64,000 bases of DNA, taken from NCBI RefSeq assembly GCF_000411295.1, contig NZ_KE150422.1:373126-437125 (forward strand), given 5' to 3'. Both the position numbers and the translations under genes were made by a program. Below are positions 20,767 through 27,746 of the stretch, piece after piece; position 1 is the stretch's first letter; each line of letters opens with the position of its first letter. This DNA comes from Paenisporosarcina sp. HGH0030 (GTDB lineage Bacteria > Bacillota > Bacilli > Bacillales_A > Planococcaceae). The notes beneath the pieces were generated by a model. The model was not told the origin of the DNA, did not search any database, and saw nothing but the letters and a program-made list of their open reading frames with translations.

Positions 20767-22242
20767 ATGACTAAAGAAAAAGCTGCAATTGAAAACGGAT
20801 GGAACTTAGATAACAGTTATGCCCGACTCCCTAAATCATTTTTTACCAAGATCACCCCAAATGCTGTGCATTCGCCTGAGTTGATAAAATTTAATGATTC
20901 CTTGGCAACATCACTTGGATTGAATATTGATGAGTTAAAAAGTAAAGACGGCGTAGCGGAGCTTGCAGGCAATAGCATTCCTGATGGATCAATTCCGCTA
21001 GCGCAAGCTTATGCCGGGCATCAATTCGGGAATTTTAACATGTTAGGAGACGGCCGTGCACTGCTGATTGGCGAACAAATCACGCCTTCAGGTGAACGAT
21101 TTGATATTCAACTCAAGGGTTCAGGACCAACACCTTATTCCCGCCGGGGTGATGGTCGAGCGGCACTTGGTCCGATGCTACGTGAATACATCATCAGTGA
21201 AGCCATGCATGCTCTTGGTATACCTACAACCAGAAGCCTCGCAGTAGTGGCAACTGGTGAGTCAATCATCCGCGAAACCGAACTGCCTGGTGCCATTCTA
21301 ACCCGTATCGCAGCCAGTCATCTACGCGTTGGTACGTTTCAATACGCTGCAAATTTCGGCACAATTGAAGACGTCCGGACGCTTGCTGACTATACAATAG
21401 AGCGTCATTATCCATATGTTGCAGGTAATGAAAATCGATATCTATCGTTACTCCTAGAAGTCATCAAACGTCAGGCTGACTTGATCGCAAAATGGCAACT
21501 CGTTGGCTTTATCCACGGGGTCATGAACACCGACAACATGACCATCAGCGGAGAAACCATCGACTATGGTCCTTGCGCATTTATGGATGAATATGATCCA
21601 GCAACGGTATTCAGTTCCATTGACCACCAAGGTCGTTATGCATACGGCAATCAGCCATACATGGCAGGTTGGAATCTAGCGCGCCTTGCAGAAACTTTAT
21701 TGCCGTTGTTCCATGATGATCAGGAGCAAGCAATCAAAATCGCCCAAGACGCGATTGCAGAATTTAATAAGTTGTATCACGAGAACTGGTATGCAGGAAT
21801 GAGAGCAAAACTGGGAATTTTCAATGAAGAGAAAGAAGATGAAACCTTGATTGAAGACCTTCTTAATATGATGCAGAAGTATCGTGCGGACTATACCAAT
21901 ACATTCCGTGCACTGACTTTCGATAAGCTTGAAGATACGGACCTGTTCAACAGTGATGAATTTGTGGAGTGGAATAAGCGTTGGCATACGAGATTGGGAA
22001 GACAAGAAGAATCTAAAGAATCTTCTCAACAGTTGATGAGGGATTCAAATCCTGCGATTATTCCTCGTAACCACCTGGTTGAAGAAGCACTTGAAGCTGC
22101 AGTTGAACGTGGAGATTATGGCGTGATGGAGAAATTACTTGAAGTACTTTCTAGTCCTTTTGAACACGCTAGCGAAAAAGCTGATTATTGTATGGTGCCT
22201 GGGGATTCATCAGGTTCTTATCGGACTTTTTGTGGTACTTGA
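20767..22242 (+). CDS. selO: Protein adenylyltransferase SelO (YdiU/UPF0061)
   Basis: A pseudokinase-fold AMPylase of 491 residues, the usual family length. Visible motifs: [60 protein letters not shown], and the catalytic region [20 protein letters not shown] with [10 protein letters not shown]. The C-terminus YRTFCGT holds the conserved Cys, where some eukaryotic relatives carry selenocysteine nearby. In known SelO proteins AMP is transferred to Ser/Thr/Tyr of redox proteins. It is soluble and monocistronic. ATGGAGGCGATACA before the ATG is a good ribosome-binding site. Confidence 0.95.
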
Positions 22243-23792: not shown

Positions 23793-23918
23793 TCCCCTTA
23801 TTGCTAATGATTGCACACGATTCATGCTTATAAATCTAGTTAGCACCTTCTTAATTTCGACAGGTAAGCTGAATAACCTTCCAATATTTTCTTTTTATGA
23901 ATCATTTTTAATGTTGGT

Positions 23919-24080
23919 GCGAGAGCACGGGGTCTTCTTGGGAAGCGTCCAGAAAAATACGGTGAGAAAGATATTGAGATGATGGAAGCACTTATTGATG
24001 AAGGTACACCAATCAAAGATGGGGCAGAAAGATGTGGCCTTTCTCGAACAACCATTTATCACTATTTTGAGCGTATGTGA
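23919..24080 (+). pseudogene. Serine recombinase (Tn3-type resolvase) C-terminal remnant
   Basis: 54 codons with no start read ARARGLLGKRPEKYGEKDIE, then MMEALIDEGTPIKDGAERCG and LSRTTIYHYFERM, then a stop. This is the HTH_7 end of a small resolvase/invertase (pattern 'ARGR-GGRP...ISRATLYRYL'). The catalytic domain is missing. It marks past transposon activity at the left border of the DndB/DUF6414 region. Confidence 0.85.
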
Positions 24081-24325
24081 TCTGATTATATATGGAACAA
24101 GATTTTGCATCAGCGGAACGGATGGTCATTGCTAAATTCCATTTTAAAGATGCTCTCTGAAGAAACTCATTAAGACATATTAGATTCATAACGATGAGAC
24201 TACCAATTAGAAACAACTTTTGATGATTGTTCCCTCTTTATTAGGAAACATGCTATACGTTTCAAGTAACCAAAATCAGTAATCTTATCATTTATGTAAA
24301 ACACCCCTTAGTTGAAGACAAAGGG

Positions 24326-24540
24326 TTATTCAACTACTTGAATAAGTTCAAAGTGAATAAATAAACCCCGTTTGTCTCCACTTAACTGCCATCCCTCAAA
24401 ATAATTAACTGTCGTGAAACTACTCAAGATAAATGCTACCTTCAAATTCCACAAATAAATCAGATATTTCTTCAAATGTAGGAAATTCAATATTCTTTTT
24501 CCCATTCTGAGCTCCCGAATTTAGTCCACATGTATGAAAT
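24326..24540 (-). pseudogene. Broken gene fragment, family unknown
   Basis: Two frames of the minus strand look coding in succession: NGKKNIEFPTFEEISDLFVE plus FEGSIYLE and a stop, then after a shift TVNYFEGWQLSGDKRGLFIH plus FELIQVVE and a stop at 24326. Together they look like the last 65-70 residues of a protein with one frameshift and no start. I do not recognise the family. Confidence 0.5.
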
Positions 24541-24582
24541 AAGTATTGTTAGAAAAGCATAATCAGAGTTAGCAATTTGATT

Positions 24583-25539
24583 TTATTCATAATAAACGGC
24601 TATAGGGGTTACTAACAAATCTCCAACTTCAATAATTTTAAATGATCCAAGTAATATGTCTAACATCATTGTTGGAATAACATCTAAATCATCTTCCGCA
24701 AATGCCTTAATATTATTACCTGTAATAACATTTTCTTTTTTTCCAATGACTCGTATTAACATCTTGGCTTTTCGACTGTTGTCAGTTCGAAAGGATAAGG
24801 ATTCTGTTGACTCTCGTAAATATTCTTTCTTTAATAGGCCTATTTTATTATTTGCTTTAATAACCGTGAGCCCATTTAATAGTTTTGATGCCAACGTACT
24901 AAATGTGTTAATTTGCTTGAAAATATTTAATATGGGTTGCGTACTTTCAAATGTGTCTACAATAATTCTAGCTTTTTCCATATTACCGCGATCTTTAGCG
25001 TTAGGATTAGACTTATTTAGTAAATTTTTCGCTTGTTCATAACTCAACCCCAAATCATCAATTTCTAAGCGCATAAAACTGCTCATCGAATCTAAATCCA
25101 TAGCATTACTCAATAGTTCAAAATCGTAAAAACGAAAAGTTGACTCTTCGATATATAAATCTCCTTCCTTAAAATTCTCACCCTTGGAAAGAAGATTCTT
25201 CTTAACTAGTTTATCTGTCAATAATTCTAATGCGTAATCATGAAAAGCTTTATTTAAAATATCTTTTTGCCCTTCAAGTATTGTTCTAGAATAATTTTCG
25301 CTTTCACTTCCATTATTGCCCAATGACGCTCCCGCACCTAAACTGCCCCCTGGAAATAATCCAGTCCCAACTTTAATGCTAGCTGTGAGTCCCGAATTTT
25401 TCCCTTTGGTTGATTGAGTTGAATTACTATTTGTTTCTTGATCAGACGTCTCAATTGAAAAGTTATTTACAAGTCCTTCATCCAATTGTGCAAGCATTGA
25501 ATTCATTATGTCTGTATCCAAATAAATAAATTCTTTCAT
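24583..25539 (-). CDS. DUF6414-type protein, partner of DndB-like gene
   Basis: This 318-residue soluble protein begins MKEFIYLDTDIMNSMLAQLD, the opening I associate with DUF6414 proteins. A low-complexity Gly/Ser/Asn segment follows at about 35-85 (GTGLFPGGSLGAGASLGNNG), then a helical middle, and a C-terminal part with FAEDDLDVIPTMMLDILLGS. No catalytic motif is visible. It lies 88 bases downstream of the DndB-like gene on the same strand with no terminator between, so the two form an operon. AGGAGGATATTAA precedes the ATG. The family assignment is from memory; a role in defence or DNA metabolism is inferred only from its partner and the decayed mobile DNA around it. Confidence 0.7.
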   Translation of the reverse strand: MKEFIYLDTDIMNSMLAQLDEGLVNNFSIETSDQETNSNSTQSTKGKNSGLTASIKVGTGLFPGGSLGAGASLGNNGSESENYSRTILEGQKDILNKAFHDYALELLTDKLVKKNLLSKGENFKEGDLYIEESTFRFYDFELLSNAMDLDSMSSFMRLEIDDLGLSYEQAKNLLNKSNPNAKDRGNMEKARIIVDTFESTQPILNIFKQINTFSTLASKLLNGLTVIKANNKIGLLKKEYLRESTESLSFRTDNSRKAKMLIRVIGKKENVITGNNIKAFAEDDLDVIPTMMLDILLGSFKIIEVGDLLVTPIAVYYE

Positions 25540-25627
25540 TTAATATCCTCCAATATTTTTAAATTTAATCTGTGATTGAATGTTAATTGTGGGCTAGGCT
25601 CTTTTTGAGCTGAAAAGGATGTATTAA

Positions 25628-26851
25628 TTATTCTTCTTCTGAAGTATTAATTTCCATTCGATACCCTAATGCATTTAAGACTGCCTTTGTAGCAAAACTA
25701 ATTGCGTCACGCGAATTTAAAATTTTATTTTCATCCCCAATAATATTATTAACAAATACATAACTATTACGATTCCAGTCGAATTGGGCGATTTTACGAA
25801 AATATTCTTTTAATTGAGTTTCATTTTGAGCTACTTTAATGAACGTTCCAGCTACTCTTGAAGCTACAATAATACCTGTGCCGCTAGTCAATACATTGTT
25901 ATTCCGGATAGCCGGGATATCAGAAGGATTTTTAGATTGAAGATGATTTAGTATGTCTGCGATGTATTTATTATCTTCTAGTTCTTTAAAGAAAAGGGCT
26001 GTATTTCTTCCCACAGTTTCCTTTAAATTCACGTCATTAGCTAATATCATTGATACTTTGAGGCTTTTAGTAGATTGTGAATTATATCCGGCTATTTCCA
26101 TTACTGCACTTTTTAAGTTATTAATTGTGAAAATATTATTTGAATTTTTAGATACACTTGTTGAAAGTAATTCAGTAGTTTGTTTTAGATATTCAATATC
26201 ATCAATTAAATCTACTACTATATTAGAAACTTTATCACGAGTATTAAATAGAGTATTAATTGATGAGCTTGTTTGTTTCGCATTTTGATTTACATCTACA
26301 AAATCTTGCCGTATTTTACGTGTGCTTTTTTCGTACACAATGTTTAAGAGTATACTGCTATCAGCGATTTCTTCAGCGGATTCTACAGCTAATTCACGTA
26401 TCGCTACAGCACGATGATTCCCATCTAAGCATTCAAATTCGTAATCAATCGGAAGAATAACCAGCCCAGCCATAGATCCTACAGATTCAAATCTAATATT
26501 TAGTTCTTCTTCAGTTTCGTCTCCAAAAGTATAAGGGCGAAAATCTAATTCTTCGAACGAAGTAAGAGTGATTGGGGGAATAGTAAACTGTTCTTCAGTT
26601 ATGATATAATCTTTAATTTCATTCTTATGTGTAGTATCTAAAAATCGATTACGAATTTCAGATTGAATAATTTCTTTGTTTTTCTTTTTTGCAGAAGATG
26701 TGTGAATAAATTTCCCTAAAACTCGGTATGGTAATGTGATAGCATACCAAATTCGTTTACCACTTTTATATTTAATTGCTGGTAATGTGATAGATGCAAT
26801 TGGAGATCCTGCATTGATTGGATTAGCTTTACTGTATGTTTGATTATTCAT
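25628..26851 (-). CDS. DndB-like DGQHR-domain protein
   Basis: This 407-residue protein has the DndB/DGQHR layout. An N-terminal block reads ITLPAIKYKSGKRIWYAITL, then NRFLDTTHKNEIKDYIITEE. The signature loop is present as DGNHRAVAI (residues 143-151; Gln of DGQHR replaced by Asn), followed by FVDVNQNAKQTSSSINTLFN and R-D. DndB is the negative regulator of dnd phosphorothioation operons and binds DNA, but no dndA/C/D/E genes are here, so this is a stand-alone member. The ATG follows AAGGGGTG. It has a clear sigma-A promoter at 26884-26912 and palindromes TACG...CGTA beside it, so autoregulation is likely. Its DNA is much more AT-rich than the core genes. Confidence 0.8.
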   Translation of the reverse strand: MNNQTYSKANPINAGSPIASITLPAIKYKSGKRIWYAITLPYRVLGKFIHTSSAKKKNKEIIQSEIRNRFLDTTHKNEIKDYIITEEQFTIPPITLTSFEELDFRPYTFGDETEEELNIRFESVGSMAGLVILPIDYEFECLDGNHRAVAIRELAVESAEEIADSSILLNIVYEKSTRKIRQDFVDVNQNAKQTSSSINTLFNTRDKVSNIVVDLIDDIEYLKQTTELLSTSVSKNSNNIFTINNLKSAVMEIAGYNSQSTKSLKVSMILANDVNLKETVGRNTALFFKELEDNKYIADILNHLQSKNPSDIPAIRNNNVLTSGTGIIVASRVAGTFIKVAQNETQLKEYFRKIAQFDWNRNSYVFVNNIIGDENKILNSRDAISFATKAVLNALGYRMEINTSEEE

Positions 26852-26876
26852 ATATTAACACCCCTTATTATTTTGT

Positions 26877-26896
26877 TACGTTTAATATAAAATATA
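26877..26896. promoter_or_regulatory. Degenerate second TACG half-site over the -10 region
   Basis: TTACGTTTAATATAAAATAT repeats the left arm of the palindrome at 26916 (shared TTACGTTTAAT) but lacks a clear CGTA arm. It covers the -10 box and probable transcription start of the DndB-like operon. Confidence 0.45.
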
Positions 26897-26912
26897 AAAT
26901 ACATATTGTAAA
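26884..26912 (-). promoter_or_regulatory. Sigma-A promoter of the DndB-like/DUF6414 operon
   Basis: On the minus strand: -35 TTTACA (26912-26907), a 17-base spacer, and -10 TATATT (26889-26884), 32 bases before the start codon. Confidence 0.7.
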
Positions 26913-26915
26913 GGT

Positions 26916-26941
26916 TTTTACGTTTAATTATAGACGTAAAA
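26916..26941. promoter_or_regulatory. Probable operator palindrome upstream of the -35 box
   Basis: TTTTACGT and ACGTAAAA are perfect 8-base arms around 10 bases, just upstream of the -35 box. TACG and CGTA are 12 bases apart. As I recall, DndB of Salmonella binds a TACG-N10-CGTA palindrome; the similarity suggests autoregulation. Confidence 0.6.
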
Positions 26942-26978
26942 TATCGATATCAAACTGTAAACAACTCTCAAAATACAA

Positions 26979-27019
26979 CCAGCTCAGTTAGATAAACTGA
27001 GCTGGTAGTATTTTTTTTT
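26979..27019 (+). terminator. Strong terminator-like hairpin without a matching gene
   Basis: CCAGCTCAGTT / AACTGAGCTGG stem with a 5-base loop and, after a short gap, a run of nine T on the plus strand. No plus-strand gene ends here, so it may be a relic of a lost gene. Confidence 0.6.
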
Positions 27020-27062
27020 ATAACACATAACACCAATTTTTTAAAATTAGTTCGCTTTAATT

Positions 27063-27182
27063 TCACATTCTTGCACCTACGATTCCGACCTTCTCTCCTT
27101 CATAAGCTTCGAAGCTAATATTTTTAACCACAAGTGTGGATTCCATATACTTTTTAATGCCATTCAATTTTAATTCCAACAT
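27063..27182 (-). pseudogene. N-terminal fragment of an ABC-F type ATPase gene
   Basis: 39 codons with a good ribosome-binding site (GAAGGA) begin MLELKLNGIKKYMESTLVVK and continue NISFEAYEGEKVGIVGA, the start of an ABC ATPase up to the Walker A loop, where a stop replaces the GKS. The absence of membrane parts nearby and the leader-like DNA upstream suggest an ABC-F (ribosome-protection) gene. The rest of the gene is gone. Confidence 0.7.
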
Positions 27183-27254
27183 AAATTTTCCTTCTTTCAT
27201 CCATAATCAAAGCTACGCCGTTTATGGATAGACAAAGAAGAACTTCATTACTAT

Positions 27255-27455
27255 GAAATTTTTTTCAAATAAAAAAGACCATAGGAAGAAGATTTCTTCC
27301 TACAGCCTGAAATATTCAATACAAATAATTTATTAAGCATAAATCAAAAAATCTGCTCGACTAAAAAGCGCAGTTTTTTGCCTATAGAAATACTTGAATA
27401 AATTATTATCCTGATTTCAGTAAAGTAAGTTGTCTTCTAATTGCCTTCATTCCAT
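27255..27455 (-). promoter_or_regulatory. Relic attenuator-type leader ahead of the ABC-F fragment
   Basis: On the minus strand, a 14-codon ORF (27450-27406, MKAIRRQLTLLKSG) is followed by a CTGC...GCAG hairpin near 27350-27375. A terminator-like hairpin AGGAAGAA/TTCTTCCT with TTTTTT (about 27262-27300) comes next, then the truncated gene. ABC-F resistance genes are commonly controlled by such ribosome-sensing leaders. The reading as an attenuator is inference. Confidence 0.4.
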
Positions 27456-27746
27456 AAAGAGCATGACAATTAAACCTAAAATAATAGGCGAATATCCACT
27501 CGTTACAAAATCCCTATTAATTTTCAAAAATTAATATCAGCAATTAGTCGGCTCCATAAACTTACTTTCCCCCTCCAGAATTTTCTCTATTATCTAACAG
27601 TCGAATTTTTCTGTAAATCAATGTTTATGTTTAAGTTGAATTGGTTAGGGGATACTTAATATGGACATTTAGTATCCTTAAATAATTATAGGGTCTATAA
27701 AAAAACTAGAAATAAAATGCGTAATTATTTGGAGGGTGAGGTTTCT
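27456..27746. other. AT-rich intergenic region
   Basis: No gene supported. It separates the decay zone from the BCCT transporter unit; ordinary-looking promoters for the latter may lie here but none is convincing. Confidence 0.4.

Follow-up and report, generated by a model that had tools for sequence, protein, structure and literature searches.

A conserved TTACGT palindrome strongly suggests self-repression by an orphan DndB relative

The dndB-like gene and its promoter

DndB restrains a bacterial system that marks DNA with sulfur. In the 64,000-nucleotide stretch of Paenisporosarcina sp. HGH0030 DNA analysed here (the window), a dndB-like gene lies within an accessory segment, next to a gene for a DUF6414 protein, and is preceded by a promoter-like sequence and a palindrome, as follows:

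23904..27594, no strand: accessory segment of 3.69 kb, in place of which a same-species genome has ~271 unrelated bases
23904..24077, plus strand: helix-turn-helix remnant from a resolvase C-terminus, at the segment's left edge (HTH_7 PF02796, E=5e-11)
24583..25539, minus strand: DUF6414 protein, 318 aa (PF19952, E=1.1e-18)
25628..26851, minus strand: orphan DndB-family protein, 407 aa, with a DGNHR motif (Pfam PF14072, E=1.2e-48)
26876..26881, plus strand: third TTACGT half-site (GTTACGTTTAAT), abutting the -10 box on its downstream side, over the expected start point
26884..26889, minus strand: -10 box TATATT, 17 nt from the -35 box
26907..26912, minus strand: -35 box TTTACA of the dndB-like gene's promoter
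26916..26941, no strand: proposed main operator TTTTACGT-N10-ACGTAAAA, directly 5' of that -35 box
26978..27006, no strand: strong bidirectional intrinsic-terminator-like hairpin, closing the region upstream of the promoter

The DndB-like protein scored 166.3 bits against PF14072 (cut-off 29.1) and 109.2 bits against the NCBIfam DGQHR domain TIGR03187 (cut-off 58.85), but 82.7 bits against the DndB equivalog TIGR03233 (cut-off 328), on which the dnd-operon proteins of L013, L046 and L106 reach 462-537 bits. By these profiles it is a member of the DndB/DGQHR family and not DndB proper. It is longer than Salmonella DndB, with ~21-24% identity to it, and differs from it at two motifs: the column of Cys29, a residue that tunes DNA binding by Salmonella DndB (its C29S variant binds more tightly), holds Leu in the window protein and Leu, Ile or Val in its relatives, and DGNHR replaces DGQHR in all window-type rows of the alignment. 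Neither a structure model (4 sequences, mean pLDDT 64.8), which had no significant PDB match, nor a sequence search of solved structures gave anything convincing. The gene's neighbours are DUF6414 and unrelated genes and, unlike in the Salmonella dnd system, a genome-wide search for dndC (TIGR03183), the one gene of dndC/D/E that it covered, gave no match. Given a genome without dndC, this orphan system would allow DNA binding by DndB, and any nucleotide sensing, to be studied apart from sulfur modification, and would separate two debated roles of DndB, that of a transcription factor and that of a nucleotide-degrading or nuclease effector.

As the preliminary description had reported, the palindrome (TTTTACGTTTAATTATAGACGTAAAA at 26916-26941, from the sequence and pattern searches) stands beside TTTACA-17-TATATT (26912-26884, minus strand), and its TACG and CGTA are indeed 12 nt apart. 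The promoter has 10 of 12 consensus matches, but the region's 21 promoter-like matches are no excess over the 19.4 expected from shuffled sequence, and its position therefore counts for more than its score. The full palindrome stands upstream of the -35 box, not across it. A second half had been said to cover the -10 box, which holds in part: TTACGTTTAAT at 26876-26886 does overlap that box, by only 3 nt, but its TTACGT core lies over the expected start point.

Taken alone, the inverted repeat is moderately unusual and suggestive only: among simulated AT-rich sequences of 100 bp, 6% contained a perfect 8-bp inverted repeat whose spacer was at most 20, and 1.7% one with at least 2 G/C in the arm. 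Across the whole genome, the 16 specified palindrome bases have one exact match, the next-best being a single site with 2 mismatches within an ORF, and the shorter TACGT-N10-ACGTA has four exact copies, of which three lie within long ORFs and the window copy is the sole intergenic one.

The palindrome in related promoters and in dnd operons

The window-type dndB set comprised seven genes (n = 7), that of the window and those of L003, L004, L005, L043, L044 and L045, the closest relatives of the window protein being 49-62% identical to it. A search of related promoters, which the preliminary description had named as one check on its claim, recovered TACGT-N10-ACGTA at the promoter in five of the seven, the window included. 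TTACGT-N10-ACGTAA lies upstream of the dndB-like gene in Bacillaceae bacterium Marseille-Q3522 (L003), Mesobacillus maritimus (L005) and two Priestia plasmids (Priestia megaterium/aryabhattai; L043 and L044), three other genus-level groups whose proteins are 50-62% identical to that of the window, and the L044 promoter has the TACGT-N10-ACGTA core twice. The exact palindrome is absent from Anoxybacillus calidus (L004) and a Paraclostridium plasmid (L045), which have several ACGT sites each, some of them within terminator-like hairpins. L043 and L044, both on Priestia plasmids, do not count as independent of each other; among the six independent promoters, four have the spacer of 10 (chance 0.0002-0.0014 for each of the four), and none has any other spacer from 0 to 40. 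Between the four, half-site identity is 100% over 12 bases, against 31-39% in the 30-bp flanks. Judged by this conservation in other genera, the palindrome is clearly beyond chance.

The right arm of the palindrome is part of a TTGACG -35 box in both L003 and L005, an overlap typical of a repressor site. The window palindrome aligns better with the other promoters when flipped, as would be expected of a symmetric protein site and not of a by-product of the -35 box. Extra half-sites stand in the same orientation as a palindrome arm, at a distance of 42 bp in the window (from the centre of the third TTACGT), 42 bp in L005, 63 bp in L003, 62 bp in L043 and 60 bp in L044; these distances are mostly near multiples of 10.5-bp turns, and such phasing suggests cooperative binding on one face of the DNA. 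The Priestia genes resemble that of the window in protein identity (61-62%), in the N10 palindrome and in having no dnd genes adjacent, and differ in that their palindrome overlaps the -35 box, DUF6414 is not adjacent and the products are annotated simply as DndB.

Some neighbours of window-type dndB genes were also observed. Three of the seven genes lie near a DNA methyltransferase gene of type D12 or C5 (L003:30-875, L045:3341-4594, L005:6776-8944). In Mesobacillus maritimus (L005; 3410-4738 and 4739-4973), the dndB gene and an HD-domain, dGTPase-like gene diverge from a 235-bp intergenic region that contains the ACGT array, and a D12 methyltransferase gene follows dndB.

The same half-site recurs in dnd operons. 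The TACG-N10-CGTA operator that the preliminary description gave for Salmonella is correct, DndB of Salmonella enterica Cerro 87 having been footprinted on two such sites (He et al. 2015, PMC4507180), and the E. coli dndB promoter (L106) reads TTACGT-AAAATATC-ACGTAA, i.e. TTACGT-N8-ACGTAA, which equals this published motif. In canonical Bacillota dndB genes the halves abut (N0): of 18 distinct genes, 15 have TACGTACGTA ~20 bp ahead of the start codon, and beyond these 18 it was seen at four more canonical Bacillota loci; loci with a near-invariant TACGTACGTA before dndB include L013, L046, L067-L075, L294 and L295. A single half-site, TACGT, thus appears to unite three motifs, the published one of Salmonella, the new one of Bacillota dnd operons and that of the orphan genes, at spacers of 8, 0 and 10, respectively, and would constitute a testable operator code for the whole regulator family. 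What is new here is this cross-family code, together with the assignment of the operator to the DndB lineage and not to the dndB/DUF6414 pair. The Bacillota dnd operator itself may be undescribed, as none of the 20 titles examined, of 29 papers containing TACGTACGTA in an incomplete collection of literature, concerns dnd genes.

Like Salmonella DndB (PMC4507180), the window protein belongs to the PF14072 family and has the TTACGT/ACGTAA half-site at its own promoter, with more than one site per promoter. Its operator differs in the spacer between the 5-bp halves, 10 instead of 8, and in place of two TACG-N10-CGTA copies the window has one TACG-N12-CGTA and one extra half-site. Canonical Bacillota DndB (e.g. 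L013, L046) likewise has a predicted TACGT/ACGTA half-site beside the dndB start but, unlike the window, its halves abut to form a single site beside the start codon, the protein passes TIGR03233 and dndC then follows (seen in L046). Many Bacillota also have tandem pairs of divergent DGQHR/DndB-family genes with no ACGT palindromes upstream (L021, L024, L080-L082); these are a separate lineage.

Wider genome searches at phylum, order and class level brought up no close members beyond the genome of L004 itself, and window-type DndB was not found in viral contigs. An unbiased scan of these contigs gave 80 loci with TTTACGT-N10-ACGTAAA, none of which encodes DndB, and in a collection as large as this the motif by itself thus has no predictive value; in a reverse scan, DndB was adjacent at none of 34 viral-contig loci with the N0 motif.

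Proposed autorepression and alternative explanations

We consider it very likely that the palindrome is the autorepressor operator of the adjacent orphan DndB-family protein, and the autoregulation proposed in the preliminary description is, in light of the palindrome's conservation, very probably right. The position of the site speaks for this reading, as do its conservation with the subfamily, its near-unique occurrence in the genome and a half-site common to canonical DndB operators; against it stand L004 and L045, which have no exact palindrome, and a spacing that differs from that of the footprinted Salmonella operator. These comparisons strongly support the identity of the operator and suggest that the window protein binds it. 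As judged by its operator, this protein would be DndB-like in its action at DNA without being the dnd-operon protein. The conserved palindrome thus strongly suggests that an orphan relative of DndB still switches itself off, and this switch seems to have survived the DNA-sulfur-marking machinery that it used to govern.

In the proposed mechanism, a DndB-family dimer would bind TTACGT-N10-ACGTAA adjoining the -35 box, a further protomer would take the TTACGT at the start point, which lies in helical phase, and occupancy of the operator would exclude RNA polymerase. The protein would in this way repress its own promoter, and repression would reach the DUF6414 gene through read-through. The nucleotide state, or ATP, may relieve repression, as reported for canonical DndB; ATP modulation of DndB is reported in work cited by PMC10853773.

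Repression rather than activation is what the overlap with the -35 box and start site, and the behaviour of DndB in Salmonella (PMC4507180) and S. lividans (PMC6186775), where it is a negative regulator, would lead one to expect. The protein might instead bind the palindrome and activate, or mainly sense or nick DNA, and the placement of the window palindrome upstream of the -35 box, not over it, would suit an activator; in addition, an inverted repeat near the -10 box of S. lividans dndB is required for expression (PMC6186775), and the ParB superfamily includes nucleases and NTPases (PMC10853773). We nevertheless regard this as unlikely, given that the third half-site occupies the start region in the window, that the palindrome overlaps the -35 box in homologues and that DndB represses in both Salmonella and S. 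lividans. Palindromic operators being common, the site could also belong to an unrelated regulator, encoded by the host or the element, that happens to control the dndB-like gene; this is very improbable, since the palindrome accompanies DndB from genus to genus, on plasmids as well as chromosomes, is missing from DUF6414 genes elsewhere, has no second intergenic copy in the genome and shows the half-site of the DndB operators in dnd operons. A chance palindrome, for all the frequency of perfect 8-bp repeats in the simulated AT-rich stretches, is scarcely credible when sequence, spacing and position are kept in other genera despite diverged flanks.

The DUF6414 partner and the accessory segment

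On the strand of the dndB-like gene and 88 nt past it, the DUF6414 gene begins, preceded by the RBS GGAGG, and because no terminator-like site lies in this gap the two are probably co-transcribed; the same spacing suggests that DUF6414 may be co-controlled. A DndB with no target but its own pair had been raised as an informative case, and the exact site is indeed intergenic nowhere else in the genome, but the two genes are not conserved together. The six other window-type dndB genes all lack an adjacent DUF6414, which makes the pair a local association within the accessory segment, and among the DUF6414 loci checked by tblastn only that of the window has a DndB neighbour.

The window's DUF6414 protein is 56-60% identical to PF19952 copies in several Bacillota prophage contigs which, unlike it, have neither DndB beside them nor an ACGT palindrome upstream: ~20 prophage-contig DUF6414 loci have at most a single ACGT upstream, and none the palindrome. 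As these DndB-less genes lack it, the site follows DndB and not the partner. In the three prophage contigs with flanks read (L084, L085 and L087, position 5001 onwards), DUF6414 is found in the lysogeny region, close to an integrase/recombinase, a typical spot for prophage accessory or defence genes. By these comparisons the partner is incidental and usually carried in prophages. A structure model of it (16 sequences, pLDDT 74.9, pTM 0.65) had no significant match in the PDB or a viral library, and no paper in the literature collection searched names DUF6414.

More tentatively, DndB may be a repressor cassette that is self-contained and portable, has its own conserved operator code (TTACGT half-sites with spacers of 0, 8 or 10), has separated from DNA phosphorothioation and now controls other payloads, here the prophage-type DUF6414, with release perhaps brought about by a change in nucleotide levels upon phage infection; we would put this forward as a conjecture that is rather doubtful as it stands.

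Concerning the accessory segment, a spread of ~23 kb at the same place in G003 was considered as a related element and rejected, as it holds ordinary chromosomal metabolic genes. At 20767-22242 of the window, a SelO/YdiU-like gene (491 aa) may have an altered C-terminus, as judged by eye, and a SelO-like fragment is present in a same-genus genome too (L116:305-790).
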